From contig MNXJ01000050.1 in assembly GCA_001872455.1 (NCBI GenBank), positions 1-55,033 on the forward strand: 55,033 nucleotides of DNA, written 5' to 3'. This DNA comes from Anaerolineae bacterium CG2_30_57_67 (GTDB taxonomy: Bacteria; Chloroflexota; Anaerolineae; Anaerolineales; Villigracilaceae). The notes under the pieces are model-generated. The model did no database searches. It was not told the DNA's origin and saw only the letters and a program-made list of their open reading frames with translations. The position numbers and the translations under genes were made by a program. Positions within the stretch are counted from its first letter, which is position 1. Every line of letters begins with the position of its first letter. Of the stretch, positions 10,547 through 54,177 are shown piece by piece.

Positions 10547-10631
10547 AACCCTGCTATTCTACCAGCGGGAAATGAAGATGGTCAAGTGTTTTTTTATGGC
10601 GTTACAGGGGTTTTTCAATCTGGGAGAAAAA

Positions 10632-10720: not shown

Positions 10721-10878
10721 TTGTGGCAAAAACACCTTTACAATTTACTCCGGATTCGCACCCCCATATGCGGAGATTAAGCGGCTTTTGCGCTGAAATG
10801 TTCCGTATTTAAGGCCTCGCACAATAAATACTTGTCATGAAATTGTAGAGCAGATTTTTATGCAATGTGAACCGTGCC

Positions 10879-10922
10879 AAAAAATGCTTGCGGAGACATT
10901 GAAGCCCCGCAAGCATTTTTTT
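10879..10922 (-). terminator. Rho-independent terminator after the Rrf2 gene
   Basis: A perfect 15-bp stem (10879-10893 with 10907-10921) has a run of A on one side and a run of T on the other. It lies 22 bp beyond the stop of the Rrf2 gene and could work in both directions. Confidence 0.8.
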
Positions 10923-10943
10923 GGCGGTCTTTTTTGCGATGTG

Positions 10944-11351
10944 CTAATGAGTTGTGGTAGCAAATTGGGCAAAATTTGTGCCACCCAAGCGCGTAACCAA
11001 ATCTTCTTGAGCATTGCACCAAATGGAGCGCAACGGGCACTCATCGCCAAAACCGCAGGCGTCTTTGTCGTTGACACACTCGTTGAGGGTGATGGGTCCG
11101 TCAATTGACTCAACTACATCCAGCAACGTGATTTCTTCGGGGGGTTTTGCCAGCGTCACGCCGCCCCGTGCTCCGCGCGAAGTTTGCAACAACCCGGCAA
11201 TTGAGAGTTGAGAAATTATTTTTGCCAGAAACGAGGGCGGAATATGTTGCTCTTGCGCAATCTGGCTGGTGGCCGCGCGCTGATTTGCGCCCAACTGGGT
11301 AATGTATAGAACGGCGCGGATGGCGTAATCGGCCTGACGGGTAATTTGCAT
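10944..11351 (-). CDS. Rrf2-family transcriptional regulator, probably Fe-S dependent
   Basis: A 135-residue winged-helix regulator of the Rrf2/IscR/NsrR family. The N-terminus MQITRQADYAIRAVLYI and the wing region SRGARGGVTLAKPPEEITLL are typical. Three cysteines of the ligand loop are present in CVNDKDACGFGDEC, with a fourth shortly after, consistent with a [2Fe-2S] or [4Fe-4S] cluster. The start at 11351 is preceded by GGAGAGG; an ATG 15 bp upstream overlaps this site and is less likely. It stands alone, so the targets are not evident. Whether it senses iron, Fe-S status or NO cannot be decided from sequence. Confidence 0.9.
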   Translation of the reverse strand: MQITRQADYAIRAVLYITQLGANQRAATSQIAQEQHIPPSFLAKIISQLSIAGLLQTSRGARGGVTLAKPPEEITLLDVVESIDGPITLNECVNDKDACGFGDECPLRSIWCNAQEDLVTRLGGTNFAQFATTTH

Positions 11352-11370
11352 GAAAAGCCTCTCCAATAAG

Positions 11371-11383
11371 GGTATTTTTTACC
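11371..11383. promoter_or_regulatory. Small AT-centred palindrome upstream of the Rrf2 gene
   Basis: GGTATTTTTTACC lies 19 bp upstream of the Rrf2 start. Its arms (GGTA/TACC) and AT-rich centre resemble an autoregulatory site of Rrf2 proteins, but the arms are only 4 bp. Confidence 0.25.
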
Positions 11384-11496
11384 TGAATAGATGAATTTTA
11401 TCGGAGAGTGTAGACCGGCGCAAGTGATGGAGGTCATGGAGAAAGTATGACCTTTTACTCCGAATTTTCGGAAAGGAATGCATCTTGGCCGTTGTG

Positions 11497-29644: not shown

Positions 29645-29687
29645 TGCGGGGGCAGGACTCGAACCTGCGACCTCCGGGTTATGAGCC
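29645..29687 (-). other. attL-like site: 3' half of initiator tRNA-fMet
   Basis: The minus strand carries the 3' part of a tRNA from the anticodon stem (GGCTCATAACCC) through variable loop, T-arm (TTCGAGT) and acceptor end (CCCCCGC). The 5' half is absent and is replaced by the end of an integrase gene only 4 bp away. Anticodon CAT and the stretch GGCTCATAACCCGGAGG match initiator tRNA-Met. This is the classic footprint of a tyrosine-integrase element that enters at an anticodon loop and restores the gene at the opposite end. Confidence 0.85.
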
Positions 29688-29691
29688 TCGA

Positions 29692-30606
29692 TTAAAGCCC
29701 CCAATTTGTTACCGGAGATGCTTTGACGTGCGCCCGCTGAATATCCGTTTTTGCTATCGCCAAATACCGCTTGACCATTTCCAACGTTTCATGCCCTAAA
29801 ATCATTTGCAGCGCAAAAGCATCGCCGCCGTTTCGTAGAAAATTTATCGCAAATGTGTGCCGAAACCGATGAGGGTGTACCTGCAAAATTCCGGCGCGCC
29901 GGGCAATGCGCTCTACCAATTGGTAGAGCGCATCCCGCGTCATGGGTGTCTTGCGAGATGTTACAAAAACATAATCACTCAAGTTTGTTTTGCGTGTTTT
30001 GAGATAAAGGTCAATTGCTTTTCTGGATGGCTCAGAGAGCGGCACAATTCGTTCCTTCGCTCCTTTACCCTGCAAGTACACACCCTGAATACCAATGTCT
30101 TTTACCTTCACTTTGCAAAGTTCGGTGGCTCTTGCGCCTGTATCCAGTAGAAAAAGCAAAATGGCGCGGTCTCGCAAAGAGCTGGATGTGGGCAGAATAT
30201 TTTGACAGATAGACTGGCCTGGTCGTTGATAAGCCAGAGATTGTTCGGTGGACGCAAGTAATGCTTCCATATCTTGTTGCTCCAAAGGGGCAATCACCCG
30301 CTTTTCCGGGCGCGGCGACTTGATGGTGTGCAAGATATGTATTTGACAAATGCCATCTGCTACTGCCCATGTCCATAAAGAAGACAGCGTAATGTGAACA
30401 TTCTTGACTCTTTTTTTGGATACTTTTAACGATGCCAAATATCTAACGATTTCTTTCGCCGTTATCTGGTCAATCTCCTGCGTCTCGCCAATAGATGCGA
30501 TAAATTTTTTCAGAATTCCATCGTAGTCGAGCAGGGTATTCTCGCTCAAACGCTGGGCGCGTTTGGCATCGAAAAAATCATTGACGGCTTGCTGTAATGT
30601 TGGCAT
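29692..30606 (-). CDS. int: Tyrosine recombinase / integrase of the element
   Basis: 304 residues. An N-terminal SAM-like DNA-binding domain (LLDYDGILKKFIASIGE) precedes the catalytic domain with LLDTGARATELCKVKVKDI (first Arg), the HPHRFRHTF box, LGHETLEMVKRYLAIA (His and nucleophile Tyr). All catalytic residues are present. The stop codon lies 4 bp from the tRNA fragment, the usual place for an element integrase. It is transcribed towards the attachment site. Confidence 0.95.
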   Translation of the reverse strand: MPTLQQAVNDFFDAKRAQRLSENTLLDYDGILKKFIASIGETQEIDQITAKEIVRYLASLKVSKKRVKNVHITLSSLWTWAVADGICQIHILHTIKSPRPEKRVIAPLEQQDMEALLASTEQSLAYQRPGQSICQNILPTSSSLRDRAILLFLLDTGARATELCKVKVKDIGIQGVYLQGKGAKERIVPLSEPSRKAIDLYLKTRKTNLSDYVFVTSRKTPMTRDALYQLVERIARRAGILQVHPHRFRHTFAINFLRNGGDAFALQMILGHETLEMVKRYLAIAKTDIQRAHVKASPVTNWGL

Positions 30607-32364: not shown

Positions 32365-33524
32365 TTCGCACCTGTGATGGCGCGGAATGCGTCTTCCGCT
32401 GCGCTGTCAAGCACGCGCAGTCGGGTCATGTATCGAGCAACTACCGATGGGTCGTCGGGGCTACTGGCTCTGGAGATTTCGCCGTACTCGATGGGTAGGG
32501 GCAATTCACCTGCCCGCGTCCCTTTCCAGGACGCTTCAATGGCCTGCTTGACTTTTTCGCCAAACAAGTTTGCCACGCGCGGGTCGAAATCCACGAAAAT
32601 CGGCACGGTTCGGCGCACCAGAGCCGGGTCAAGCGCGTTCCCCCAGGGATTGCACGCGAGGACGATGGGAACGTCATCGGCGGGCATCCAGACGTTGCCC
32701 CAGAACGGGGCGGACGTTCCCCGCACATCCCCTTTGTGCGCGATACCCATGCGGTGAGCGTCCTGCTGTCCGATGGGCAGCAGAAGCCGCAGCAGGCTTT
32801 CGGCGGCACGCGGGGAGAAGCGTGTAAACTCGTCCAAGAACAGCAGGGTTTTGCCCATGTTTTGGGCGTACTCTGCTGCCTCGGCGATGGGGCCGGGGAA
32901 GCGCAATCCAGTAGGCATGACAACGCCCACCATGTCAGAGTCGGTGTAGGACTCCGACCCAGCCACCTCGACCATGCGGGCGTTGAGCGCCGCTGCGACT
33001 AGCCGGACGGCGCTCGTCTTGCCCGTTCCAGTCGTTCCAACGAGCAGCGGGACGTATCCGGCCTGAAGTACGGCCAGGGTCTCCTCGGCTACTTGCTGGA
33101 TGGCCGCGCCGATGGCCGCTTTCAGCCGATTTGTGAAATCGGCTGATGCTTCGGGCGCTGCCGAAACAGGTTGTTTTTCCTGCTCTGGCAGAGCGTCCTC
33201 GGCGGGAAAGTTCGTGGACGCTGGCATGGCATTTTGCGCAGCCGCTTGGAGGTGGGCTTGTGCGTCAACTTTCATAGCCAGCGCCATCACGTGCTTACAT
33301 GGCGCTGCGTGCGTTTTGAAGTCTACGCATTCACATGTGTAGCGCACATACTTGCCGTTGTCCTCCACCAACTTCACCTGGTACTTGTGGACGTTTGCTG
33401 TGTACGTATTACCACTTTGTCCGATGGTGATGGACGTAGTGGCCATCAATTGCAGCGCCCGCTTGAAGCGTGCAACGTCAATTGCTGTGCCAAATAAAGT
33501 GGACATTCCGGTCATGGTTAGCAT
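32361..33524 (-). CDS. MoxR-type AAA+ ATPase with N-terminal SWIM zinc finger
   Basis: 387 residues. A SWIM finger (YTCECVDFKTHAAPCKHVM; C64, C66, C76, H78) is joined to a MoxR/dynein-like AAA+ domain with Walker A LLVGTTGTGKTSA (about 160-172), Walker B KTLLFLDEFTRF and sensor VLACNPWG. SWIM fingers bind DNA or proteins. In some bacterial MoxR-VWA operons the SWIM domain is a separate protein; here it is fused to the ATPase. The start has AGGAG upstream. Confidence 0.87.
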   Translation of the reverse strand: MLTMTGMSTLFGTAIDVARFKRALQLMATTSITIGQSGNTYTANVHKYQVKLVEDNGKYVRYTCECVDFKTHAAPCKHVMALAMKVDAQAHLQAAAQNAMPASTNFPAEDALPEQEKQPVSAAPEASADFTNRLKAAIGAAIQQVAEETLAVLQAGYVPLLVGTTGTGKTSAVRLVAAALNARMVEVAGSESYTDSDMVGVVMPTGLRFPGPIAEAAEYAQNMGKTLLFLDEFTRFSPRAAESLLRLLLPIGQQDAHRMGIAHKGDVRGTSAPFWGNVWMPADDVPIVLACNPWGNALDPALVRRTVPIFVDFDPRVANLFGEKVKQAIEASWKGTRAGELPLPIEYGEISRASSPDDPSVVARYMTRLRVLDSAAEDAFRAITGAK

Positions 33525-33556
33525 GGTTTTTTCTCCTGGGGTGTCATGGGTGTGAT

Positions 33557-33574
33557 GAGAGCCAACAGGCTCTC
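33557..33574 (-). other. Hairpin upstream of the SWIM-MoxR gene
   Basis: GAGAGCC and GGCTCTC flank a 4-nt loop, between the tRNA-like element and the ribosome site of the next gene. Confidence 0.5.
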
Positions 33575-33579
33575 TATTT

Positions 33580-33623
33580 ACCCGTGTCGGAGTCGAACCG
33601 GCGGACGCGCCTGGCGCGAGGGT
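33580..33623 (-). ncRNA. tRNA-like element 1 (weak)
   Basis: Starting 1 bp after a stop codon, the minus strand shows a short acceptor-like pairing (ACCC with GGGT), a D-arm-like hairpin CGCG-loop-CGCG, and a T-arm-like hairpin with the canonical T-loop TTCGACT and one C-A mismatch. There is no anticodon arm. It is the weakest of the set and its call depends on the others. Confidence 0.35.
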
Positions 33624-33624
33624 C

Positions 33625-33813
33625 TTATTCTTCCTTTCTTGCTATCCTTTCACCTTTTACCGCATAGATGTTCGTGGGCGCATCTCCTCGGACGATAATT
33701 GCGTAGTGATTGTCGGGGAGCGTATCAATCACTACGGCCTGGACGACACTGCCATCGTCTCGTGTCAAAAGTATTATTTGGCCGGGGGCGGGTCTGGTTG
33801 AATCATTTGCCAT
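33625..33813 (-). CDS. Small hypothetical protein
   Basis: 62 residues (begins MANDSTRPAPGQIILLTRDD), beta-rich, with no recognised family. It overlaps the end of the upstream OB-like gene by 40 bp in another frame. The ribosome site is weak, so expression may depend on coupling. Confidence 0.5.
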   Translation of the reverse strand: MANDSTRPAPGQIILLTRDDGSVVQAVVIDTLPDNHYAIIVRGDAPTNIYAVKGERIARKEE

Positions 33814-34139
33814 TGCAGAGCAACTACCTCGGTAACGATTTGGGGAACGCGCGTTTTTTCAAGTCCCGCTGGACATTTTTTCAGCAGGCTCGATAGGGTT
33901 GTCTCGCGCTCCGCGTTGCGGACGTATCCGCTCACATGGATTTCCGCCCCGCCCTCGATGACAATCCCATGCGATGCCGCATCTGGCAGGAGGACTGTTA
34001 CCAGGTCGTTTGGGCCTCCGTCACGCGGCGGGAGGAACATCGGACGTTTTATGGACAAGCGCACCAGGCGGTCAGCGCCGAAAGTCCAGGACTGAAGGAC
34101 GCGGCCAATCAGAAAAACGTGGTTTGCGTGGTGGGTCAT
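33774..34139 (-). CDS. SSB/OB-fold-like protein
   Basis: 121 residues. The start NHVFLIGRVLQSWTFGADRL, with strands at VTVLLP and AEIHVSGYVRN, resembles a single OB fold of the SSB/PriB type, but without an acidic tail. The ribosome site AAAGGAG is good. It is one of three such proteins on the element. A role in protecting transferred or replicating single strands is likely but inferred. Confidence 0.6.
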   Translation of the reverse strand: MTHHANHVFLIGRVLQSWTFGADRLVRLSIKRPMFLPPRDGGPNDLVTVLLPDAASHGIVIEGGAEIHVSGYVRNAERETTLSSLLKKCPAGLEKTRVPQIVTEVVALQWQMIQPDPPPAK

Positions 34140-34172
34140 TTTGTTGCTCCTTTTTGTAGAAAGAAGAAGAAA

Positions 34173-34196
34173 AGACGCGCTCTGGTGAGCGTGTCT
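34173..34196 (-). terminator. Terminator-like hairpin
   Basis: A 10-bp stem (34173-34182 with 34187-34196, one G-T pair) and a 4-nt loop, followed on the minus strand by TTTCTTCTTC. It follows the small membrane gene. A weaker fold (34217-34257) lies between this hairpin and that stop codon. Confidence 0.6.
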
Positions 34197-34261
34197 TCAT
34201 GGTGGTGGAAGCAGTTAATTGGGTTGAAAGGTGCGCGGACAGGAAAGCCGCGCAATTCTCC

Positions 34262-34390
34262 CTACATCATCATTCGGCGGTCAATCTCGGCTTGACCGCT
34301 TACTGCGTACCATATGGTACGGGCAGCGCTAATCATCGAGAACAGAATTACAGCGCCAAGAATGATGATAATTACGGTAGTTGAAGTCAT
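34262..34390 (-). CDS. Small single-span membrane protein (42 residues)
   Basis: From the ATG at 34390, preceded by GGGAG: MTSTTVIIIILGAVILFSMI begins a protein with one membrane helix and a short basic and acidic tail. The length is too small for family recognition. It lies between structured spacers on both sides. Confidence 0.6.
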   Translation of the reverse strand: MTSTTVIIIILGAVILFSMISAARTIWYAVSGQAEIDRRMMM

Positions 34391-34442
34391 GATAGTCTCC
34401 CTCGGTTGTGTGTGGTTTTGTCCCAGACGAGTAGCCTGGGGG

Positions 34443-34492
34443 AAGGTTGAAGCCTCCGAAAGATGGCTACATCTTTCGGAGGCTTCAACCTT
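34443..34492. repeat. 23-bp perfect hairpin with 4-nt loop
   Basis: 34443-34465 is the exact reverse complement of 34470-34492. It sits between tRNA-like element 2 and the next gene's ribosome site. In RNA this would be a very stable rod. No T tract follows. Confidence 0.85.
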
Positions 34493-34545
34493 GACACACA
34501 CAAAAAAGGGGACTACCAAGACCAGAACGGCTTTCCTGTCCGCAG

Positions 34546-34617
34546 TCATCCAACCAGGAGTCGAACCTGGCTTCCTGCTTGTCCGGGGAAACAAGCGGCG
34601 AAGTGCCGACTGGATGA
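34546..34617 (-). ncRNA. tRNA-like element 2: near-complete cloverleaf with odd anticodon loop
   Basis: The minus strand gives 7-bp acceptor TCATCCA/TGGATGA, linker GT, a D-arm-like stem CGGC/GCCG with a 5-nt loop lacking the conserved GG, a stem CTTGT/ACAAG with an 8-nt loop TTCCCCGG, and a perfect T-arm CCAGG/CCTGG with loop TTCGACT. Length 72. A normal tRNA has a 7-nt anticodon loop. It could be a divergent tRNA-Gly (CCC), a frameshift-type tRNA, or a non-translating tRNA mimic. No CCA is encoded. Confidence 0.6.
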
Positions 34618-34621
34618 AGTT

Positions 34622-34647
34622 CCCTGGTGTGTCGGTACACACCAGGG
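34622..34647. repeat. 11-bp perfect hairpin after the SSB-like gene
   Basis: CCCTGGTGTGT and its exact complement flank a 4-nt loop, 29 bp after the stop of the SSB-like gene and 4 bp before tRNA-like element 2. Confidence 0.7.
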
Positions 34648-34676
34648 GGAGCAGCGCGTAACGCGCAGCCACTCGT

Positions 34677-35081
34677 TTACAGTTCGCCTTCGAGTTCGGT
34701 AGGAGCGGGAGCGTCGTCATTGATGCGCTCGACCTTGTAGGCATACAAGGTCATGGACTGACGGACGTTTTCGTTTTTGTCAGTCCATTCGTCCAGTCCG
34801 ATGTGGCCGTAGGCCACAAATTTGTCGCCTTTCTTGATGGCGTCAAGTGCCACGACTTCCGCGCCTGGCTCCGTGTTAGGCGAGAACGCCTTCACCGTGA
34901 ACCAGATAGATGGAAGAAATTCTCCCGAGGCCTTGTCTTTGCCCTGGGAGAAAAAACCACGGACGCTCGCCCAGGGTTTTCCGGCAGAGCCGTACTTCAT
35001 TTCGCCGTCACTGGCGGCCTGAAGTTGAATTTTGAGCGCGTTTTCGCGGCGAACAGTTGCACTTGCAGTATTGGTAGACAT
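34677..35081 (-). CDS. SSB-like OB-fold protein of the element
   Basis: 134 residues. The layout, with AGKPWASVRGFFSQGKDKAS, SIWFTVKAFSPNTEPG, KKGDKFVAYGHIGLDEWTDK and MTLYAYKVERI, follows an SSB-type OB fold. The acidic C-terminus (TELEGEL) lacks the DDIPF tip. The start has GGAGG at 5 bp. It probably binds single-stranded DNA during transfer or recombination. Confidence 0.72.
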   Translation of the reverse strand: MSTNTASATVRRENALKIQLQAASDGEMKYGSAGKPWASVRGFFSQGKDKASGEFLPSIWFTVKAFSPNTEPGAEVVALDAIKKGDKFVAYGHIGLDEWTDKNENVRQSMTLYAYKVERINDDAPAPTELEGEL

Positions 35082-35132
35082 TGATACCTCCGTAGGTTAG
35101 AAAATTAGAGAGCAACCAGGTAGGTCGCTTGC

Positions 35133-36011
35133 TCACGATTTGGGGGGCGCTTGCTTGCATACCTCGGCCAGCGGGCAGTAGTCACATGCCCAGGCGTCAT
35201 CGCTGCCATCCGCCAGGGCGGGGGGCATTTCGTCAGCGAACAACAGGTCGAGCTGCGCCTTGATGCGAGCCACCGTAGCGGCTTCATCAAGTGTTACGGG
35301 AACGCGCACTATCTCCTTGGGGCCGAGATAGATTACCTCCCCAGCCTTGACGGGCGTGCCAGCCTTCGCCAGCAGTAGCGCATACATGCGCAATTGCCAG
35401 GTGTGCGAGGTGCGCGGCGCTGGGGCGTCGTAGGTGGAGAATATGGCCTGCTGGCCGACTTCCCCACAGTTCGGGCAGGTGTACTTTCTCGCTCTGCCCA
35501 ACTTTATGACCTCTGCCCCACATTGGCAGGCGTAGTGGCGTCTACCCCGAGGTGGATTCTCGGTGACTTTGTAGTCGTAGACTACGCCGTCGCGCACCAA
35601 GTCCGGCTTTCCTGTCAGCCTGACTACGCGCCCATTTCGGCGGAACACCCATTCCAGCCGCTTTTCGGCCTCGCCAGTGGCGAGACGTTCTAGCACGCCG
35701 TGAATCCAGGTGCCTCTTTGCATTCGGTACAGGCCGCCGAGTAGTTCGTAGTACCCGTGTATGGCTTCAAGCCTCGTCCGGCGGGCGCACTTGATGAGTT
35801 CCGTGACGGAAATCACCAAGTCCTCCCCTGGCGCTTTTTGGAAAGCTGGGCGGCGTTGAACGACAGCCGCCAGCACTTCGGGCGGGAATGGACATGGTTT
35901 TCCGCCTCTGGCAGCGCAGGCTGCGCAATCGGCAAAAGCGACGCTCGCGTCATCCACTGGGCAGATGATGCCCAGTAAGCCCGTTGTGTTCGTTGTGTTC
36001 GTTGTGTTCAT
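35133..36011 (-). CDS. Cas4/RecB-like PD-(D/E)XK nuclease with Fe-S and zinc cysteines
   Basis: 292 residues from the ATG at 36011, with GGAGG upstream. The nuclease core has H104 (WIHG), D137 (GKPDLV) and D146-K148 (YDYK). One N-terminal cysteine (C75, IKCARR) plus three near the end (C276, C279, C285 in WACDYCPLAEVC) match the Cas4/AddB iron-sulfur pattern. A CQCG...CPNC ribbon is inserted in the middle, and four more cysteines lie before residue 45. It probably trims DNA ends for the Rad52-like protein. No cas genes are present, so a CRISPR link is not supported. Confidence 0.82.
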   Translation of the reverse strand: MNTTNTTNTTGLLGIICPVDDASVAFADCAACAARGGKPCPFPPEVLAAVVQRRPAFQKAPGEDLVISVTELIKCARRTRLEAIHGYYELLGGLYRMQRGTWIHGVLERLATGEAEKRLEWVFRRNGRVVRLTGKPDLVRDGVVYDYKVTENPPRGRRHYACQCGAEVIKLGRARKYTCPNCGEVGQQAIFSTYDAPAPRTSHTWQLRMYALLLAKAGTPVKAGEVIYLGPKEIVRVPVTLDEAATVARIKAQLDLLFADEMPPALADGSDDAWACDYCPLAEVCKQAPPKS

Positions 36012-36047
36012 AGGTAGATGCCTCCGTTTGTGTTGTTTGGCGAGCGG

Positions 36048-36103
36048 CGAATGCCACTCTTCCAGGCTGCCGATGGGGCGGCAGCCTGGAAGAGTGGCAT
36101 TCG
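36048..36103. repeat. 25-bp perfect hairpin with 6-nt loop
   Basis: 36048-36072 pairs exactly with 36079-36103, just upstream of the ribosome site of the nuclease gene. It is the longest perfect stem in the window. No T tract follows on either side. Confidence 0.88.
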
Positions 36104-36120
36104 GAAGTTTCAAAAAGAAT

Positions 36121-36144
36121 GGAGCAGGTAGGGTGGCCTGCTCC
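36121..36144. repeat. 8-bp hairpin in the same spacer
   Basis: GGAGCAGG and CCTGCTCC flank an 8-nt loop. The remaining part of the spacer (36145-36290) has smaller pairings, such as GGATGC/GCATCC at 36170-36192, and no gene. Confidence 0.55.
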
Positions 36145-36293
36145 ATCGCTCTCTCAATCCCCTAGACTCGGATGCTGCCTTGTGAGGCATCCTGTCGCCG
36201 TAGGACTACACCGGAGAGCGGATGCCGGAGATGTGTACGGCGGGAGGGGGTGATTCACAAGGCTTACGCAGGAGTAGGAGAAGAAAAAGCAAG

Positions 36294-36340
36294 TTCCCTG
36301 GTTGGTCACGAACCAACTGGGCGCTTTACGCACCAGGGAA
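36294..36340 (-). ncRNA. tRNA-like element 3: acceptor plus D-like and T-like hairpins
   Basis: Four bp after a stop codon the minus strand folds into a 7-bp acceptor (36334-36340 with 36294-36300), linker GT, hairpin GCG/CGC with a 5-nt loop (36321-36331), CCA, and a T-arm GTTGG/CCAAC with T-loop TTCGTGA (36301-36317). The spacing copies tRNA topology, but the anticodon arm is absent. Length 47. Confidence 0.55.
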
Positions 36341-36344
36341 AACG

Positions 36345-37103
36345 TCAAGAAAAAACAACCAGGCGAGAAACGACCACATGCACGGACTCTTGCGTTGCTA
36401 CAATGTCGTGCGTTGCGCCTGGTTCTGGCAGGCGCTCAATCATGGCGGTAGTTTCCGGGTCGCCCCGCCGCGCGAGCGCAGCGAATAGCGACTGTTGGTA
36501 GGTCAGCGATTGCAGTGTGCCGGTAATGCGTACACGGGATTTGGAACGCAATTGGATTTCGCGCCCGCCGACCTGCCCGTCTTTGATAACCACCGTCACA
36601 TAGTGCGGTTGGCGTCTCATCTGGCCGCGATTGCCTTTCTGGTTTGACGCGATTGTAAATGCGTCATAGGCGGCAATACGCAGGTAGGTGTTGTCGGCGT
36701 GCTGCCATTGCTTTGCGATGATGCCATCCAGATTCGATTCGCTGGTTGCGCCGTCATCGGTGCAGGTCGTTGCGCCGTTGGCGTACATCATCGTGTTGAT
36801 GCGCTTGAATGTGATGGCCTGCCATGCGGGGCGGTCAGCCTCAGGCACATTGTCGAGGAACGATTTTGCGCCTGCGTTCTCCAGAAATCGGAAAACGGTC
36901 TCCTCAAATTGATGATGGAAAAGATAGCCAGATAGGGTGAGATTATCCCCTGCCTGGAGAGTTTGAGGCGGAGCGGCAAGCAGCGCGTTGGCGTAGTTAC
37001 GTTCACCAATCAGGAGCCGCGCAAAAACATCGGTGCGGCCCCAGACGCGGCGAACCTTACCACGCAAGACGGTAGTATTTGTGTCGAACTGTTCGGTTCT
37101 CAT
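36345..37103 (-). CDS. Hypothetical protein with OB-fold-like segments
   Basis: 252 residues from the ATG at 37103, preceded by AAGGA. The N-terminal part (TVLRGKVRRVWGRTDVFARL, then GDNLTLSGYLF) and the C-terminal part (YVTVVIKDG, then SRVRITGTLQSL) each resemble OB-fold strands, so this may be a two-OB single-strand binder. No catalytic motif is seen. It lies between the Rad52-like and nuclease genes, which fits a DNA-recombination role. Confidence 0.55.
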   Translation of the reverse strand: MRTEQFDTNTTVLRGKVRRVWGRTDVFARLLIGERNYANALLAAPPQTLQAGDNLTLSGYLFHHQFEETVFRFLENAGAKSFLDNVPEADRPAWQAITFKRINTMMYANGATTCTDDGATSESNLDGIIAKQWQHADNTYLRIAAYDAFTIASNQKGNRGQMRRQPHYVTVVIKDGQVGGREIQLRSKSRVRITGTLQSLTYQQSLFAALARRGDPETTAMIERLPEPGATHDIVATQESVHVVVSRLVVFS

Positions 37104-37173
37104 GTGTCCTTTTTCCTTTTCGGAATAACTCGTTTGATAAAGCACTCGTTTCTCGGTTGTCAAGGTGCTATCG

Positions 37174-37198
37174 GCATTGTCCTCAGAGGACAATGCCA
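37174..37198. repeat. 11-bp perfect hairpin
   Basis: GGCATTGTCCT and its exact complement flank a 3-nt loop in the spacer between the Rad52-like gene and the OB-like gene. Confidence 0.65.
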
Positions 37199-37212
37199 GG
37201 AAGTTGTCAGGA

Positions 37213-37237
37213 GCAGGGAGACGGTGAGTCTCCCTGC
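37213..37237. repeat. 10-bp perfect hairpin
   Basis: GCAGGGAGAC and its exact complement flank a 5-nt loop, 14 bp after the stop of the Rad52-like gene. Confidence 0.65.
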
Positions 37238-37251
37238 CGAGCCGGAGATGA

Positions 37252-38046
37252 CTAGATTTCCTCGATGGCTTCCTTTCCGGCGGGTGCCGCGGCTTTGGGA
37301 GCGGCGGCGGGATGGCGTCGAGCCAGAAGCGCCGTTGCGTTTGCCCGCAGGACTTCCGTTCCCTTGTCGGTCAGGTTCTTGGCGTACCAATCCAGAACTT
37401 TGTCATCCTGGTCGCCGAGCGCCTGCCCAGCCCGTTTGCCGAGCGGTATGATGTAGCCTTCCAAGTCAGCAGCGGCGGGAGCAGATTTTGGAGTGGTCGG
37501 AATCGGAGGAGTCCTGGAGGTCGTCGCGGCCCCGGCTTTGACGGTCTTGTGAGACCGTTTACCCAGGTACACGCTCTCCTGAAACCCTAGGTTCGAGACA
37601 GCCTTGCCTAGCGCGTTTGTTACCGAGCCAGACATGGCAAAGCCTGCATTTGAATTCTCGCTCGCCCCAGTGGATGGGACGAGGCACCTGACTATCTCCC
37701 CATCCACTGCGAGCGTGTACCAGAAGGTCAATCGCGTTAGAGTAGCCGTAACCACCTCGCGCGTCCCAGTCGATGTCTTTTGCGTCCGCTGGGAGAGAAG
37801 GATGTCCTCGGGGTTATAGTCAACCCCCCATCCAAAGCCACACAGACCGAACAGTTTGTTCAGCACCCGGCGCATATGCGCCGGGTCAATATCTGTCAGG
37901 TCTGCTCCGCCGGGAATGGCGGAATAAGCATCTGCTGGGAGCAGCGCGTCCAGTTCGGTAATCACCTGGGGCATGAGGTAACCCGTGCGGGTGGTGATGG
38001 CCGCATACGCGGCGGAAGCGGAAGGTGAAGCATTTTCAGTAGTCAT
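37252..38046 (-). CDS. Rad52-like single-strand annealing protein
   Basis: 264 residues. The segment HMRRVLNKLFGLCGFGWGVD, followed by a strand region ATLTRLTFWYTLAVDG and the helix SGSVTNALGKAVSNLGF, has the pattern of Rad52/Rad22-type annealing proteins of phages and mobile elements. The C-terminal third is Ala/Pro-rich and ends in an acidic tip, as in many such proteins that contact SSB. With a Cas4-like nuclease and SSB-like proteins in the same operon it would make a complete strand-annealing recombination set. The start has AGGAG upstream. Confidence 0.75.
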   Translation of the reverse strand: MTTENASPSASAAYAAITTRTGYLMPQVITELDALLPADAYSAIPGGADLTDIDPAHMRRVLNKLFGLCGFGWGVDYNPEDILLSQRTQKTSTGTREVVTATLTRLTFWYTLAVDGEIVRCLVPSTGASENSNAGFAMSGSVTNALGKAVSNLGFQESVYLGKRSHKTVKAGAATTSRTPPIPTTPKSAPAAADLEGYIIPLGKRAGQALGDQDDKVLDWYAKNLTDKGTEVLRANATALLARRHPAAAPKAAAPAGKEAIEEI

Positions 38047-38057
38047 TTTTTCTCCTG

Positions 38058-38080
38058 TGCGTCCAGGCCAACTGGACGCA
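38058..38080. repeat. 9-bp hairpin upstream of the Rad52-like gene
   Basis: TGCGTCCAG and its exact complement flank a 5-nt loop, close to the ribosome site. Confidence 0.6.
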
Positions 38081-38161
38081 GATTGAACATACGTCAGTTG
38101 GTGGGTGGGCGCCGGAGATTCCGGCTGTTAAGGTGCAAGAGGGGCGGAAAGCCTCTCAAAT

Positions 38162-38205
38162 CATCCGGCTGGACTTGCACCAGCCTGGCCGCGTAACGGC
38201 GGATG
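38162..38205 (-). ncRNA. tRNA-like element 4 (T-loop TGCAAGT)
   Basis: On the minus strand: acceptor-like CATCC/GGATG, extendable by AAAT/ATTT with a 2-nt bulge; hairpin GCCG/CGGC with a 5-nt loop; and a 6-bp arm GGCTGG/CCAGCC with loop TGCAAGT, which keeps C56, A58 and T60 of a T-loop. There is no anticodon arm. Confidence 0.45.
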
Positions 38206-38217
38206 TGATTTTTAAGG

Positions 38218-38244
38218 TAGAGATGATTTTGTGAATCATCTCTA
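38218..38244. repeat. 11-bp hairpin after the small membrane gene
   Basis: TAGAGATGATT and its exact complement flank a 5-nt loop, 32 bp beyond the stop of the gene at 38277-38486. Confidence 0.6.
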
Positions 38245-38276
38245 GAACAATTGCAAAAACAGGAAACCCGGACGGG

Positions 38277-38486
38277 TTAGATTGAGTAATTCCTGTCGTC
38301 GAACTCCACATCTGGCTGCGAAGTGCGGTCAGATGATGTATCAGACGACTTAGATTTACCCGATGATAACCGCTTGACAGTTAGCACGATGTTCAGCACT
38401 ATTGTCAAAACGAAGGTGATGGGCAGCAGGATGGTTACGATACCCTGGATGTGCATGACCTTTGGTAACAACTCGGCGAATGGCAT
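38277..38486 (-). CDS. Small membrane protein (69 residues)
   Basis: From the ATG at 38486, preceded by AAGGAG: one long membrane helix (GIVTILLPITFVLTIVLNIV) and a Ser/Asp-rich cytosolic tail. The family is not recognised. It could belong to the transfer apparatus or to entry exclusion; nothing decides this. Confidence 0.62.
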   Translation of the reverse strand: MPFAELLPKVMHIQGIVTILLPITFVLTIVLNIVLTVKRLSSGKSKSSDTSSDRTSQPDVEFDDRNYSI

Positions 38487-38512
38487 TGACTTCTCCTTGT
38501 GAATGAGTGGAA

Positions 38513-38568
38513 GATTATGAGTTTCGGAGCGCAAACAAGTCATTGCCTGCGCTATGAAACTCATAATC
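38513..38568. repeat. 13-bp inverted repeat with nested 6-bp pair
   Basis: GATTATGAGTTTC (38513-38525) pairs exactly with 38556-38568, and AGCGCA/TGCGCT (38528-38533, 38548-38553) pairs inside, giving an extended rod upstream of the small membrane gene. Confidence 0.65.
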
Positions 38569-38644
38569 AAACTCATCGAGTGTTACGAGGGGCTTCCTTT
38601 TTTGTTAATGTTCGCTCGGACAGGGGTCGTGTCCACCGCCGAAA

Positions 38645-38688
38645 TCGCCTGCGCGGACTTGCACCGCGCTTCGCACTATGCCAGGCGA
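38645..38688 (-). ncRNA. tRNA-like element 5 (T-loop TGCAAGT)
   Basis: Four bp after a stop codon the minus strand shows a 6-7 bp acceptor (TCGCCTG with CAGGCGA), a short GCA/TGC hairpin, and a 6-bp arm GCGCGG/CCGCGC with loop TGCAAGT, the same loop as in element 4. Length 44. Confidence 0.45.
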
Positions 38689-38692
38689 ATGA

Positions 38693-38926
38693 TTAGAAAA
38701 CTATTGTTTCTTTTGGGTTGCGTACCGGTGCAGGATTATCCAGCGCCACAGGGCGGACTTTCCACTTGCCGAAAACCATCAGCAGCGCAGTCGTCAGACC
38801 AATTAAGCCCATGAACAGGTAAGCGGCGTAGGGAAGGCCCTCTACGCTGCCGCCTGGGTCTACGAGAGCCAGGGCAGCGTAGAAAAGGACATTGAATGCC
38901 GAGAGTGTCATCAGGATGTATTTCAT
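38693..38926 (-). CDS. Small membrane protein with two helices (77 residues)
   Basis: Begins MKYILMTLSAFNVLFYAALA and has a second helix AYLFMGLIGLTTALLMVFG, with a short Pro-rich tail. The start at 38926 lies 4 bp after the stop of the replication-relaxation-like gene, so the two are probably coupled. The family is not recognised. Confidence 0.65.
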   Translation of the reverse strand: MKYILMTLSAFNVLFYAALALVDPGGSVEGLPYAAYLFMGLIGLTTALLMVFGKWKVRPVALDNPAPVRNPKETIVF

Positions 38927-38930
38927 CTCT

Positions 38931-40109
38931 CTACCAAGTTTCTGCCCAAAGGGGCGTAGATGGAGGTATTTCTGTAAATTTTGTTGCAATCAGTGTTTCG
39001 ACATCGGTGGCTTGCCCAGAACCAATATTGCGGCAGTCGGAAATCAATTGTTTGCGCTCTGCGACATTGCGGGCAACCAGGGCAATTGTTCCGCCGTTCA
39101 GAGCGGCGTTCATGCGCCACTTGGCATTCTCCTCGTGCAGGCGCGTGCCGGTCTCGACCTCAACGTATTTTGCGCCATCTGGCTCGGTGAGCAGCATATC
39201 TGGCCTGGCGTTGCCCTCGACCTCGGGCAGAATGTTCACGGACATTCCTCGCGTCCTTGCGCTGGTTGCCGTCAGCAAAATAGCCAGGGTGTGTTCTTCC
39301 TGCTTCTCGCCTTCGTGCAGGCGCAGCAGGCGCTCCCACTCGCTTTCGACAACAGGCCAGTCCCAGATACCGCACAAAGTCGCGCCTTCGGCGGAGAGCC
39401 TGGCAACCACTAATCTCGTGGGTGCGTTGCCGCTGATGTTCATGGCTAATGTTTGACGCACAATCAAGCCGGATGTATCCAGCGCATCCAGCACGCGCCG
39501 GATGGAGCCAGAGCGACCTTGCACGCCGCTTTCTGCGCCCAGCAGGTTGCCAATCTCCACCTGCACAGACAGACCGCCTGCCAGCAATTTCAAGGCGCTG
39601 ACACGGCGATACAGGTTCAGGTCAGCATCCGCCTTGCTTACACCCACAGGAATTTTGAAGCGCCCAGCATAGGCCGCTGGGATGCGCGGGATGTCGTAGT
39701 GCGGCGTTTCGACAATCACCCTGTGTTGCGTCGCGGCGGGAGAAGGCGGCGTTGCAACTTCTCGCGGAAGAAGCGCCACCGCTTTGGCAGTTGCAGCGCG
39801 TTCCTGTTTCAGCAACGCCACTTCCCGTTCCAGCCGCGCCGTGACAGTGTAGTGCGCATCTCCCCAGCCGGACGCCTGTTGCGCCGCGCCGGAGAAGAAG
39901 GTGCGCCAATCGTCTGGCTTCCAGCCGCCGGGGGCGGTGGGGTCTTTTTGGCGCATGGCCTCCAGTTTCGCTCCGTCCGTGCGATAGGCAACCTCGGTCA
40001 GAATCGCGGTCAATGCCCGCGCCTTTTTTTCGGCCATTTCGCGGAACGTCTGCTCTGCCGTGAGCATGTCGGCGAGCATATTGTTTTGGACGCCGCTAGT
40101 TGCCGCCAT
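38931..40109 (-). CDS. Replication-relaxation-like protein (winged helix plus nuclease-like domain)
   Basis: 392 residues from the ATG at 40109; AGGAG precedes it, and a TTG 6 bp earlier is a less likely start. The middle contains a winged-helix segment (ALKLLAGGLSVQVEIGNLLG, then IRRVLDALDTSGLIVRQ). The C-terminal domain has RPDMLLTEPDGAKYVEVETG, a PD-(D/E)XK-like pattern seen in proteins annotated as replication-relaxation (Replic_Relax), which occur on conjugative plasmids and elements. No HUH or MOB relaxase motif is visible. It is the best candidate in the window for a protein acting on the transfer or replication origin. Confidence 0.62.
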   Translation of the reverse strand: MAATSGVQNNMLADMLTAEQTFREMAEKKARALTAILTEVAYRTDGAKLEAMRQKDPTAPGGWKPDDWRTFFSGAAQQASGWGDAHYTVTARLEREVALLKQERAATAKAVALLPREVATPPSPAATQHRVIVETPHYDIPRIPAAYAGRFKIPVGVSKADADLNLYRRVSALKLLAGGLSVQVEIGNLLGAESGVQGRSGSIRRVLDALDTSGLIVRQTLAMNISGNAPTRLVVARLSAEGATLCGIWDWPVVESEWERLLRLHEGEKQEEHTLAILLTATSARTRGMSVNILPEVEGNARPDMLLTEPDGAKYVEVETGTRLHEENAKWRMNAALNGGTIALVARNVAERKQLISDCRNIGSGQATDVETLIATKFTEIPPSTPLWAETW

Positions 40110-50212: not shown

Positions 50213-53200
50213 TTACTCGCGGGTTGAACCGAGTTTGGCTTCGATTTCGCGGTCACTGGGTTCTGGCGCAATGACCGCCATCGGACGAAACAGGAACGGC
50301 TGCCCCATCTCGCGCTCCATCGAATACGAGAAGCGGCCAATGAACATACCGATTTGCATATCCGTCATAAACCGCCGCCAGGGTTCGTCTACGAAGCCTT
50401 TTTCGGAACGGGCGATAGCCGCCAGAACAATGTCTTTATCCTTCGGGCTTTTTAGCATCCCGATAACGACATTGTTGCAAGACGAAACGATGTCGGGCGG
50501 AATCAGACTGGGCGCCTGGGTAATAACGTGCATCCGCGCCAGGTATTTGCGGGCGTCACGAAACATATCGCCAAAACGCTGCGAGAGCGAAACGCCGCCG
50601 CTATCATCGTCCCCGCCCCCACCGTCCACCCCACCGAAGATTTTGTTTGCCTCCTCAAAAAAAATTTGCAAGATAGGTTCTCCGGTATTGACCTCATGCA
50701 CGCGCCGGGCAACCATATCGGTATAAAGATGCCAGCCTGTCCATCCCAGCAGGAAGGCTTTGCCGAAGTCGTCCAGGAAAGAACCGCCTTCGATAATTGC
50801 CACGCCCCAGGGCTTTGCCAGGTCTTCCATCGGGACGCAATCTGCGCCAGCGGCGAACATGGAAGCCGCCGCGCCTTGCACCAGGCCATTCATGCGATAG
50901 ATGATGCCTTCCAGCACGCCGTTCAGCATCGTGTCACGGGGATTGACCCGCGATAACTTATCTTCCACCTCTCGGTAGAGCGTCATCAGGTCGGTTACGC
51001 GCGAGCGGTAGACAGCCAATTTTTGCAACTGGATAATGTCAAGATTGGCAAGCGGCGTGCCTGCCAACTCATTGGTGATGTCCACCTCGTCCGGTTGCAC
51101 TTTTCCCCAGATGGGGTCAGTCCGCACCTCGCGGTCATCCACCAGCACGCCTGCCTTAATGTAGACCGTCCGCAGAGCGTCGAGCAGTTCCTGTTTCTGC
51201 CGCTTGACGCCCAGGTGCGCCACCGAACCGAAGATGTCCGCGAATGCCCGCCACTGGGTTTCTGGGTTGATGTTGCGTCCAATCTGGATGGGATTCCAGC
51301 GCAGGCTGCGCGGCGCAGACGGCCACAGTTGGCGAATGTCCACATGCCCTTCCAGGCCAGGCGCATTGAGCAACGAGCGCCAACCCGCGCCAAAATCCAG
51401 CACCACCGTCCGCAAGTGCCACTTTGTAGTCGTCTCGTAGGCCATGCGCATCGCTGCAACTGATTTACCGAAGCCGGTATCAGCCGCGAACATCGTATGA
51501 AACAACCTGGCCTCGTCCAAACGCACTGGCGCAGATGTCAGGTCGCGCGTTAGCGGGCTGTATTGATGCCCAAGAATGACATCCCCTGGCATGGTTGGAT
51601 AAAACGTCAATCCGCGCGGCGTGGGCGCAATCGTCACAACCGCCGTGGACTCTTCCACGATGCCGGGAGATGTATAAGCAGCGACCTGGCCTGCGGTCAG
51701 CAACGTGCCATAGGTCGTCCATAGATGCCGAGTGATGGCGTCATCTCCCGCATTGATTTCATCGTTAGGGTAGAACGCCAGGATGTTTTCGCGGTTGGCA
51801 TCGGGAACGGGAACAGTGACAACCGGCGCGGGAACATTCGTTCCATGAAACGCCTGCGCCGCCAGGGTTTGCGCGGCCTGAACACCAGGCTCCTCAACCA
51901 GCAGGTTCACATCCGTCATAAAACCGCCTTCCTGGGCGGCCTGGTTTGCAACAGCCTCGAACTGACGCATCATTTCCGTCAGACGAATTGCTACATCGTC
52001 CTCGGTTTGCCATGAGCGCCCAATATTGACGCCAGGCGCGAGACCCGTGGAAAAGCCGCTGTTCCAGGACTGGCCCAACATGCGGCTGTCGGCATTCCCC
52101 GTACTCTGCCCCACCATATGCGATTGGCCGTCCGAGTGTGAGACGCTATCGGCTGTTCCCCACGCCTCCGAAATTCCGTTGGCGTGCGATTTGCTGGTGC
52201 TGGTAGACCATGTTTCGGACATGCCCGCAGAAACGGCGTGCGACTTGCCAGCCGAAATTCCGTCCGAACTGCCCGACCCGGACGAACTTGATTTTGCCAC
52301 CGAGTCGGACTTACCGGACGACCACGACGAACCGCCGTTTGTGCCGTAGGAATGAACCTGGGTATAGCCGGTGGTCGTGTTGTAACTATTGCCATGACTT
52401 GTAGAATTGCCGTCAGATGCGCCGCTCTGAACGCCCTGCTGCACTCCGCCGCTATACGTTCCTGTCGTGCTGACGCCTGTTCCCAGCAGCCCAGCACTTG
52501 CGCCCGCAGAAACGGATGCACTCTCTGTCGCGCCGCTGGATTCCCCCTGGGATTCGCTGTGCGTTGCACCTGTTCCAAACGACTGCCCTACGGACGTGCC
52601 GTGAGAGACAATCGTACTGCCTGCCTGACTCCAGCCGCTAGAACCGCCAGCAGATGTGGATGTGCCATGCGAGACGGTTTTGCCGCTGGACGACATGCTG
52701 GAATCAGAATGGGACGTGCCGGAACTCACGCCGTCCGATGTACCGGTGGTCTTGCCGACACTGTGCGTTTGCCCTTCGCTAGTTCCCCACGACTCGGAAA
52801 TACCCTTTGAATGGCTGTCAGTGTGAGATGTGCCGTCAGTCTGGGCAACGCCGTCCGATGTCGTTTGACCGTGCGAGTGGGTTGCTCCCTGACTACCAGA
52901 AACGCCCTGCCCAAGCGCAGCCATGATGGGAACGCCCAGGCTGAAGCCGATGGACTTCACCCCGCGCTGACGGCTGGCAAAGTTGCTGGTAAAACGTGCA
53001 ATATCCATAAACGCGCGCGCCAGGTCGCCGCGTCTGACATGGTTGGCCGTGACCTGGAAAACAAAATCCTGACGGATTTTTGCCAACCCACGAAATAAAA
53101 TTTCGTTCTGCTCTGTGGCAAGGTCATCTGACCCGTAATCTGGCAGGTCGCCCTCGCGCCCAAGACCCCGCTTCTGACTGCGCGGGTCTGGATAGCCCAG

Positions 53201-53641
53201 CAATGCCAGGGGACGCGCCCGATTGACGAAATCGAGGTACCAGCGCAGCCATTCCAGCCGAGGCGAATTGGTTTGACTTTGGCGAAAATTCGCCAAAGCC
53301 GCGCGTACAGCGGTTAGCCCGCTGACGGCTCTTTCTGCGGCTGCATCCATTGTTTCGGCGGTGGCAGCAGAACCATAGAGTTGCACGACGCCAATATGGT
53401 CGGGATGAAAAATGCCCATCGCGGTATAGATATAATCCACACGCGCGTCATAAATACCCTTCAACGCCGCCCATTGCAGGCCGAGCGTGTCGGTTTCGTT
53501 GTTCACATCGAAGGGGATGGATGTTAACTCGTGCAGCGCGACACAGCGAAAAAAATCCCCGGACTGAGTGGAGAGTTTAAACCAGGCAAATTGCAGATTG
53601 CCGTTGGAGATTTCGAGGCCATTATCCAGGACATGAATCAT
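50213..53641 (-). CDS. VirB4/HerA-like conjugation ATPase with a large Ser/Gly/Thr/His insertion
   Basis: 1142 residues from the ATG at 53641 (ATGA overlap with the gene before). Residues 1-240 form a VirB4-type N-terminal domain. Residues about 242-537 are a low-complexity tract rich in Ser, Gly, Thr and His. The ATPase core follows: Walker A FAADTGFGKSVAAM (about 720), Walker B-like LQIFFEEANKIF (about 990) and HVITQAPSLIPPDIVSS. VirB4-like ATPases energise type IV transfer channels. The inserted tract sits between the N-terminal domain and the ATPase and is not a frameshift, since the frame is open throughout. Confidence 0.85.
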   Translation of the reverse strand: MIHVLDNGLEISNGNLQFAWFKLSTQSGDFFRCVALHELTSIPFDVNNETDTLGLQWAALKGIYDARVDYIYTAMGIFHPDHIGVVQLYGSAATAETMDAAAERAVSGLTAVRAALANFRQSQTNSPRLEWLRWYLDFVNRARPLALLGYPDPRSQKRGLGREGDLPDYGSDDLATEQNEILFRGLAKIRQDFVFQVTANHVRRGDLARAFMDIARFTSNFASRQRGVKSIGFSLGVPIMAALGQGVSGSQGATHSHGQTTSDGVAQTDGTSHTDSHSKGISESWGTSEGQTHSVGKTTGTSDGVSSGTSHSDSSMSSSGKTVSHGTSTSAGGSSGWSQAGSTIVSHGTSVGQSFGTGATHSESQGESSGATESASVSAGASAGLLGTGVSTTGTYSGGVQQGVQSGASDGNSTSHGNSYNTTTGYTQVHSYGTNGGSSWSSGKSDSVAKSSSSGSGSSDGISAGKSHAVSAGMSETWSTSTSKSHANGISEAWGTADSVSHSDGQSHMVGQSTGNADSRMLGQSWNSGFSTGLAPGVNIGRSWQTEDDVAIRLTEMMRQFEAVANQAAQEGGFMTDVNLLVEEPGVQAAQTLAAQAFHGTNVPAPVVTVPVPDANRENILAFYPNDEINAGDDAITRHLWTTYGTLLTAGQVAAYTSPGIVEESTAVVTIAPTPRGLTFYPTMPGDVILGHQYSPLTRDLTSAPVRLDEARLFHTMFAADTGFGKSVAAMRMAYETTTKWHLRTVVLDFGAGWRSLLNAPGLEGHVDIRQLWPSAPRSLRWNPIQIGRNINPETQWRAFADIFGSVAHLGVKRQKQELLDALRTVYIKAGVLVDDREVRTDPIWGKVQPDEVDITNELAGTPLANLDIIQLQKLAVYRSRVTDLMTLYREVEDKLSRVNPRDTMLNGVLEGIIYRMNGLVQGAAASMFAAGADCVPMEDLAKPWGVAIIEGGSFLDDFGKAFLLGWTGWHLYTDMVARRVHEVNTGEPILQIFFEEANKIFGGVDGGGGDDDSGGVSLSQRFGDMFRDARKYLARMHVITQAPSLIPPDIVSSCNNVVIGMLKSPKDKDIVLAAIARSEKGFVDEPWRRFMTDMQIGMFIGRFSYSMEREMGQPFLFRPMAVIAPEPSDREIEAKLGSTRE
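52030..52915 (-). repeat. Region encoding about 295 residues of Ser/Gly/Thr/His-rich sequence
   Basis: Short, irregular units such as GTSHSDSS, SHGTS and SESWGTS recur through the whole stretch, with almost no hydrophobic residues apart from scattered Trp and Val. The DNA units are degenerate, so the composition is kept by selection more than by simple slippage. Confidence 0.85.
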
Positions 53642-54177
53642 TGTTTGCCTCGTGAGCGATATTTGAAAATCATGTCTTCCGGCGACATGCCCGTGGGTGG
53701 ATGCGCGAAAATTCCCTGAGCCAACAAAGCCAGGTAGCCCACCGGCAGCAGATAGAGCGCGACGCTGGTGATGGCGGCCAGGTATACCTGGCCGGAGTTC
53801 AATAGCGGGTCGGTCATGGATGGCAGCAGCGTCTTGTAAAGCGCCACCCCGAACCCTACCAGGGCGTACAGCGCCAGGCCGCGTACCATAGTCCAATAGG
53901 TTGCCTCGGGACTGAACTTGTCCAGATATGCGGCGGTTAGCCCGCTGGCCGCCATAACAATCAGCATCAGCGCCACCGGGAATGGTGCAAACACACCGGC
54001 GAACAGGGCTAACCCGCCCACGCCTAATAACCAGTTGCGCTGGGTAGGCGGGCTGAAATAGATGGCAACCACAAGCACGGCCACCAGCGCCAACGGAAGC
54101 AGGTTATCCACCAGCAACCAAAGCGCACCCAGCAAACCGTTCACCAACCAGTAGCCAAATAAGATAATAGGGTTCAT
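53638..54177 (-). CDS. Polytopic membrane protein of the transfer locus
   Basis: 179 residues from the ATG at 54177, overlapping the upstream stop as ATGA. About six hydrophobic segments (ILFGYWLVNGLLGALWLLVD, LLPLALVAVLVVAIYF, and later ones) and a short basic cytosolic tail. It may be the channel or VirB6-like part paired with the VirB4-like ATPase, based on position only. Confidence 0.62.
   Translation of the reverse strand: MNPIILFGYWLVNGLLGALWLLVDNLLPLALVAVLVVAIYFSPPTQRNWLLGVGGLALFAGVFAPFPVALMLIVMAASGLTAAYLDKFSPEATYWTMVRGLALYALVGFGVALYKTLLPSMTDPLLNSGQVYLAAITSVALYLLPVGYLALLAQGIFAHPPTGMSPEDMIFKYRSRGKQ

Follow-up and report, generated by a model that had tools for sequence, protein, structure and literature searches.

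Anticodon-less tRNA mimics as putative punctuation marks in the messengers of Anaerolineae mobile elements and Lactobacillales phage-plasmids

The window analyzed here is the entire 55,033-base contig MNXJ01000050.1 (assembly GCA_001872455.1) from the 2.99 Mb genome of Anaerolineae bacterium CG2_30_57_67, the right part of which is a mobile element whose gene spacers contain RNA folds resembling the acceptor/T half of a tRNA. These tRNA mimics are real folds, and we favor, on balance, the interpretation that they are RNA punctuation marks, i.e., minimal tRNA mimics in the long messenger of the element that would be cut by RNase P and RNase Z. Relatives of the element have mimics at matching places despite divergent sequences, and the mimics are therefore likely to be sites at which one long message is divided by cutting into individual ones.

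tRNA mimics in the gene spacers of the element

The five sites proposed in a first-pass annotation of the window all lie in spacers of minus-strand genes and are themselves read on the minus strand, in keeping with the proposed match to the gene direction. Mimic 5 (38645..38688) and mimic 4 (38162..38205) are mini forms with a UGCAAGU T-loop; the former has a D-like GCAUAGUGC and a stop codon 4 nucleotides (nt) before it, and the latter precedes a Rad52-like gene and has a second hairpin behind it (38137..38157, minus strand). Mimic 3 (36294..36340), a mini form with a UUCGUGA loop, lies 4 nt past the stop of an OB-like gene. Mimic 2 (34546..34617), located after an SSB-like gene, is cloverleaf-like with a UUCGACU loop and has both a D-like and an anticodon-like hairpin; thus, the original description of the folds as lacking the anticodon arm applies to the mini forms but not to this site. 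Item 1 (33580..33623), a weak mimic, lies 2 nt past a stop and is followed by a second hairpin of 7 base pairs (bp; 33557..33574, minus strand) before an AAA ATPase gene. Accordingly, the three sites said to start within 4 bp of a stop codon do so, at distances of 2, 4, and 4 nt.

For items 2, 4, and 5, the described fold is the best fold of the stretch alone, and for item 3 it is nearly the best, with pairs forming inside its T-loop. Together with the descriptor matches considered below, this upholds four of the five proposed folds. Item 1 fares worse: its T-stem has a C-A mismatch, it is absent from the hits of both descriptors, and its hand-written tRNA-like fold has an energy of -9.9 kcal/mol as against -16.3 for the best fold. 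It is kept only for its position (a stop 2 nt away, and then the 7-bp hairpin and a start), and its status as a mimic is doubtful. None of the five sites was called by ARAGORN, or listed by Rfam (Rfam 15) at its own cut-offs or by the tRNA model (RF00005) in a search of the own genome at E ≤ 10. With respect to RF00005, the mimics possess the T-arm with a 7-nt T-loop and the acceptor helix. The minis lack the anticodon arm, have a core of their own (GCANAGUGC), and score below the reporting limit of the tRNA model in the Rfam and genome searches; the tRNA-model scoring covered some rather than all of the cloverleaf-like members. At loose limits, Rfam recovered no known family for the mimics, save for a weak twister-sister score.

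Both strands of the window were scanned with a descriptor comprised of a T-stem, a 7-nt loop T[TG]C[AG]NNN, and an adjoining acceptor stem. At a score of at least 28, it matched six places, namely two real tRNAs and items 2 to 5, with 0.4 expected by chance (mean of ten first-order resampled windows), and it had no match at score 28 in the chromosomal part or the pilus genes of the window. For item 4, the top-scoring acceptor is a longer alternative (38158-38229), the described fold coming from folding and from a looser, earlier descriptor; the latter was less decisive, giving seven matches (two tRNAs, four items, and one within the integrase gene) as compared to 3.4 in resampled sequence, where the highest count was 9. 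Across 19 element sequences (401,596 bases, nearly all titled Anaerolineae), 32 matches scoring at least 28 lie on the gene strand and none on the antisense strand, with resampled expectations of 1.2 and 0.9, respectively. ARAGORN calls three of these 32 as full tRNA-like genes. Given these counts (six vs 0.4 in the window, and the 32:0 strand split in the 19 element sequences), a chance origin is unlikely. Since the descriptor was tuned on this window, the fairer tests are the other elements, the plasmids pLM1 and pMP1046B discussed below, and the phages T5 and LP65. In the latter two, which served as negative controls (positions 1-50000 of each), all matches scoring at least 25 are tRNA genes, save for one full-length tRNA-like place in T5 RNAX.

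Conservation of fold, place, and layout

A covariance model (R1) built from 13 members of the UGCAA subclass, mimic 5 being one of them, had three matches outside its training set: L067:10808 (51.6 bits), L047:11022 (27.3 bits), and mimic 4 of the window (26.7 bits); the next-best match, at 18.0 bits, is a UUC mimic. At E < 0.1, R1 recovered only mimics 5 and 4 in the own genome, and across 396 genomes of the class (15 candidates scored per listed genome) it had matches in 5; the match in G287 (28 bits) looked like another pairing and was dropped. There was no match at E ≤ 1 in positions 1-50000 of T5 or LP65, and eight of nine plasmid and phage records were likewise free of matches at E ≤ 0.01. 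In an alignment of 28 members of one subclass, which was fitted to the model and is biased towards it, the covariation score is 0.534 vs 0.149 in shuffled alignments (none of 500 shuffles reached 0.534), and sliding the pairing partners brings it to at most 0.109. The same members have 62 doubly changed cells vs 18.2 upon shuffling. A MAFFT alignment with misaligned 5' halves was set aside. Five hand-registered counterparts located after one gene are paired at 12, 12, 12, 12, and 11 of 12 positions with differing bases. The occurrence of folds in the same spacers of relatives, taken with the covariation, supports the view that the fold rather than the sequence is conserved, just as the first-pass annotation had suggested; it had also named a lack of covariation as grounds for rejecting the folds, and the 28 members instead display strong compensatory change.

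A spacer map combining local tblastn searches with descriptor matches scoring at least 26 reveals a mimic before the Rad52-like gene in nine of the 15 sequences that contain this spacer (window, G148, G101, G092, L060, L064, L065, L066, and L067); G086, L062, L071, and L072 begin in or near this gene and stand outside the 15. After the OB-like gene, the window and G086, G020, G012, and L059 have a mimic, out of 11 with that gene, the latter four being the counterparts of mimic 3, and G031 has one 249 bases behind the gene. A mimic after the SSB-like gene is found in the window and G086, and G020 has one before this gene instead. The type at one place varies between a mini with a UGCAAGU loop, a mini with a UUC loop, and a full cloverleaf. 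What is kept at a place is the acceptor/T half, and neither the sequence nor the middle part. An interchangeable type at a kept place suggests that whatever reads the mimics recognizes the generic acceptor/T half. In three loci, a full tRNA-like gene with a long acceptor stem is found 12 nt past a mini mimic (L049:11698-11773, L067:10869-10944, and L072:537-611); these genes have the anticodons CAC, GTC, and CAC, respectively, and are otherwise alike.

For an overview of the mimics, 61 places were hand-curated after automatic finding, with the genes in unannotated loci being called mechanically. Setting aside three places without a parse (L067:10808, L094:9991, and L094:9904), two doubtful ones (L095:4822 and L044:759), and the above full tRNA-like genes (L049:11698, L067:10869, and L072:537) left 53. 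A separate layout set, likewise of 61 places, consists of these 53 and eight of the nine matches in pMP1046B, the excluded ninth (53743) being on the strand of its flanking minus-strand genes. Both the 53 and the 61 places include related elements and are hence not independent. Most mimics include a small D-like hairpin. A stop codon typically comes first, then the mimic, in many cases another hairpin, and finally a ribosome site and a start; in L064, L065, and L066, the acceptor stem is opened by the stop codon itself. A second hairpin of at least 5 bp begins at most 5 nt past the discriminator in 27 of the 61 places, as against a mean of 5.9 and a maximum of 11 in 40 resampling runs. At shifted places, the count is 6 of 61 at +15, 9 at +30, and 13 at +45, and ranges from 7 to 12 at four upstream places. 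The T-stem and acceptor together comprise 11-13 bp in 42 of the 53 mimics (11 bp in 11, 12 bp in 19, and 13 bp in 12), with U at N-1 in 30/53 and A at N73 in 28/53. Among host tRNA genes (30 inspected of 43 above the cut-off), 17 have U-1, 18 have A73, and 2 encode the CCA.

Several further features accompany the mimics. A single-stranded ACYTTAACAA-like motif occurs about 10-45 nt behind many of them (L046, L049, and L067), often after a CCCGCAAGGG hairpin. In the window, there is a 23-bp perfect inverted repeat (34443..34492) between mimic 2 and the next small open reading frame, and, downstream in the gene direction, a 25-bp perfect one (36048..36103) behind mimic 3 and a 26-nt one (85%; 38513..38568) behind mimic 5. 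These repeats lie ahead of the next gene or at its start, and may serve as RNase III sites or as messenger caps. Mimics 2 and 4 are closely preceded by 11-bp perfect hairpins (34622-34647 and 38218-38244, respectively); if the mimic were cut on its 5' side, these would remain close to the end of the upstream messenger.

Phage-plasmids and the carrier elements

A scan of IMG/VR with the pattern GCATAGTGC N2-12 GGTGCAANTCC retrieved eight contigs, five of which (L096, L098, L101, L102, and L103) contain the UGCAA subclass with the proper fold; L097, L099, and L100 have the pattern without the fold, though L097 scores 25.7 bits with R1. The pattern GCAGAGTGC had no match in IMG/VR, and two further patterns retrieved from it three known contigs and nine contigs including the known L103, respectively; the other eight of these nine have no convincing fold, with L111 (21 bits) being ambiguous. 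One of the five folded contigs is pLM1, a 108-kb plasmid of Limosilactobacillus mucosae with terminase, tail, and holin genes. At a descriptor score of at least 25, it has eight matches in spacers in the gene sense (one being a tRNA-Arg) and one within a gene on the other strand, with 0.7 expected. The related pMP1046B from Ligilactobacillus salivarius contains an operon (8498-12737) with 55-57 nt mimics in five spacers; between the annotated genes of 7916-13399, seven spacers exceed 100 nt, and the mimics occupy five of these. Behind every one of the five mimics there is a 6- or 8-bp hairpin starting 2 nt past position 73, and then a ribosome site and a start codon. In two other records of this kind, one and two mini forms, respectively, are located within or close to the tRNA clusters. 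The layout is common to unrelated Bacillota phage-plasmids.

In the window, the element has a tyrosine integrase (29692..30606, minus strand) adjoined by the 3' half of a tRNA-Met-like gene (29647-29701; 17.4 bits with the tRNA model), which is probably the left attachment site. From the integrase to the contig end, the minus strand carries most of the likely genes, with products including AAA ATPase, SSB-like (34677..35081, minus strand; from a protein library comparison), Cas4-like, and TadE-, CpaB-, and T2SSE-type proteins. The marker gene of the element (37252..38046, minus strand) has its best match in PHROG 7838, labeled exonuclease, the term Rad52-like being our own reading; OB-like is a guess for a 282-aa protein (36345..37193, minus strand) without a library match. 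A 1227-aa serine-rich protein (50213-53896; NCBIfam NF033849), whose C-terminal end weakly matches DNA-translocating ATPases, perhaps forms a transfer apparatus with the products of the nearby TadE-, CpaB-, and T2SSE-type genes.

A search of 150 relatives found the Rad52-like gene in seven genomes besides the window's own (eight including it), and a genome contig collection contributed 16 loci, five of which are the same records as five of those seven genomes. The carriers are titled Anaerolineae or Chloroflexi, save for one titled Herpetosiphon, and include the isolates Anaerolinea thermolimosa IMO-1 and Bellilinea caldifistulae GOMI-1. Among the viral contigs searched, the Rad52-like marker protein has no relative; the SSB-like protein has relatives in two, where the descriptor gave only two tRNAs. 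In L041, a viral contig with an SSB-like relative, ARAGORN called a tRNA that is a suppressor of TAA beside a tRNA-Met (L041:1016-1090). In Bellilinea GOMI-1, L092 (C23) has more mimics, on both strands, around another integrase gene; this, together with R1 matches at C31 and C20, suggests further carrier elements in that genome.

Proposed role, rival explanations, and known counterparts

The first-pass annotation considered several roles, of which cutting by RNase P/RNase Z is the best fit: these enzymes can dispense with the parts of the mimics that vary, and a second hairpin is often placed at the new 5' end that cutting would create. There is less support for messenger 3' protection or for binding by an element protein. 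We propose that the host RNase P would cut the 5' side of the mimic and RNase Z its 3' side, leaving an upstream messenger that ends just past its own stop codon and a downstream messenger that starts with a 5' stem-loop, which would slow its decay. That a 5'-terminal stem-loop stabilizes bacterial messengers is general background, and titles in the bibliography of PMC3997798 point the same way. Where the stop lies within a few nucleotides, we envisage that the terminating ribosome would keep the mimic open, such that cutting would wait until the upstream gene is no longer being read. The host has an RNase P RNA and an RNase Z relative that scores 281 bits, just below the curated cut-off of 293. 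Bacterial RNase P is reported to cut model hairpins of the acceptor and T-arm, in which N-1, the discriminator, and the T-loop all play a part, and to do so without requiring the anticodon arm (PMC4975455); phage M3 and C4 RNAs and some messengers are also among its reported targets (PMC11143913).

Several observations weigh against this interpretation. Many spacers are without any mimic, and the spacer before the Rad52-like gene lacks one in six of the 15 sequences (G031, G020, G012, L057, L059, and L069). Between scores of 25 and 28, the descriptor had seven antisense matches, such that both strands are represented. The stop distances, taken for open frames of 60 codons or more (at most 16 nt in 21 of 61 places, and at most 80 nt in 38), are raw, uncontrolled counts. 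By the test given above, 34 of 61 places have no second hairpin, the shifted control rises again to 16/61 at +60 and 17 at +75, and the upstream and downstream flanks fold with similar stability (mean z of -1.37 and -1.47, respectively). The mimics also depart from host tRNAs at position 1, with C in 29/53 vs 3/30 (24/30 having G), and at position 74, with C in 20/53 vs 30/30.

A different reading is that the messenger is a mere carrier, from which the mimics are released as stable small RNAs acting in trans, e.g., as decoys for tRNA-targeting host or defense enzymes. Some mimics do occur in noncoding tRNA clusters of phage-plasmids or beside a tRNA, and the annotation of T5 lists stable RNAs that are tRNA-like and have no assigned function; nevertheless, a role in trans would need neither the stop within 16 nt in 21 of 61 places, with a second hairpin and a start behind, nor the recurrence in given spacers, and we regard it as unlikely. 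Marginally less probable again is that the mimic stays in the messenger, either as an exonuclease block at its end or as a binding site for an element protein controlling the operon. The firm folds at gene ends suit such a fixed structure, and a 5' or 3' block requires no cutting. However, an element-specific protein should keep one fold, when in fact the T-loop type and the middle part are exchangeable at one place, and an exonuclease block does not call for a helix of tRNA length, U-1, and A73.

Derivation from worn tRNA genes, e.g., through repeated integration into tRNA genes, would agree with the position of the element beside the 3' half of a tRNA-Met-like gene and with the cloverleaf-like item 2. 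It is highly improbable, since paired changes that keep the stems are not expected of decaying genes, nor is gene-sense placement in given spacers, and the minis have their own core; we rejected it on the covariation in the 28 members. Equally improbable is another known element, be it a twister-sister ribozyme, an intrinsic terminator, or a chance fold. The twister-sister ribozyme (RF02681) resembles the mimics in having a UGCAAGU/C-loop hairpin beside a short hairpin, closed by a stem, and mimic 4 scores weakly with its model (19.7 bits vs a cut-off of 34) through the same T-loop hairpin; the ribozyme differs in its core loops (GCAAG and GCUCAU in the model consensus), which are absent in the mimics, both being deleted in the alignment of mimic 4. 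Intrinsic terminators, sought as a GC stem and T run, yielded seven terminator-like sites in 33500-39000, none on a mimic.

Extending the punctuation hypothesis beyond the window, we tentatively suggest, as a proposition with somewhat less than an even chance, that unrelated mobile elements (integrative elements of Anaerolineae, phage-plasmids of Lactobacillales, and some phages) share a modular device. In it, an anticodon-less mimic combined with a 5'-cap hairpin would punctuate polycistronic messengers via the tRNA-trimming enzymes of the host, gated by the ribosome at the adjoining stop, as a bacterial counterpart of organelle tRNA punctuation.

Among known systems, the mascRNA of MALAT1 has a tRNA-like fold at which RNase P and RNase Z define an RNA end; unlike the mimics, it is eukaryotic and from a single locus. 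The nearest in function are the t-elements of plant mitochondria, where cleavage by RNase P and RNase Z reportedly sets the ends of messengers and which are not aminoacylated (PMC11658184). Both the t-elements and the mimics are tRNA-like, lie at the ends of messengers, and have no CCA encoded, the ends here being deduced from stops and spacers. The t-elements are organellar and related to tRNA genes; in contrast, the minis show no relation to these by sequence (scores below the reporting limit of the tRNA model), lack the anticodon arm, have their own core, and are found in bacterial mobile elements, often coupled to a second hairpin. The phage M3 and C4 RNAs and the polycistronic messengers described in PMC11143913 likewise present RNase P with tRNA-like or simpler folds, but as single RNAs or sites, whereas the mimics form a repeated modular series in gene spacers. 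A pseudo-tRNA from a Bacillus cereus genomic island is reported to be a tRNA-like RNA that is not used in translation (PMC3399842); it is predicted and sits at the island flank, as opposed to a series of spacer elements. RNA1, RNA2, and RNA3 of phage T5 (AY543070) are also tRNA-like RNAs of unknown function from a mobile element, but are annotated as 73 to 144 nt long and lie in a tRNA cluster, and the descriptor found no mini form in T5 1-50000. Among the matches listed from the open-licence literature, no title or opening part of an abstract describes such elements in bacteria.

If our interpretation is correct, the mimics, which neither Rfam 15 nor the tRNA finder calls, would be a case of bacteria repeatedly employing tRNA mimicry for the cutting and capping of messengers, and would explain how each gene could have a separate messenger life in elements with long operons. 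They would also be minimal substrates of natural origin for RNase P and RNase Z and make the messenger ends of phage-plasmids predictable from sequence, and they may have a bearing on the tRNA-like phage RNAs of no known function.

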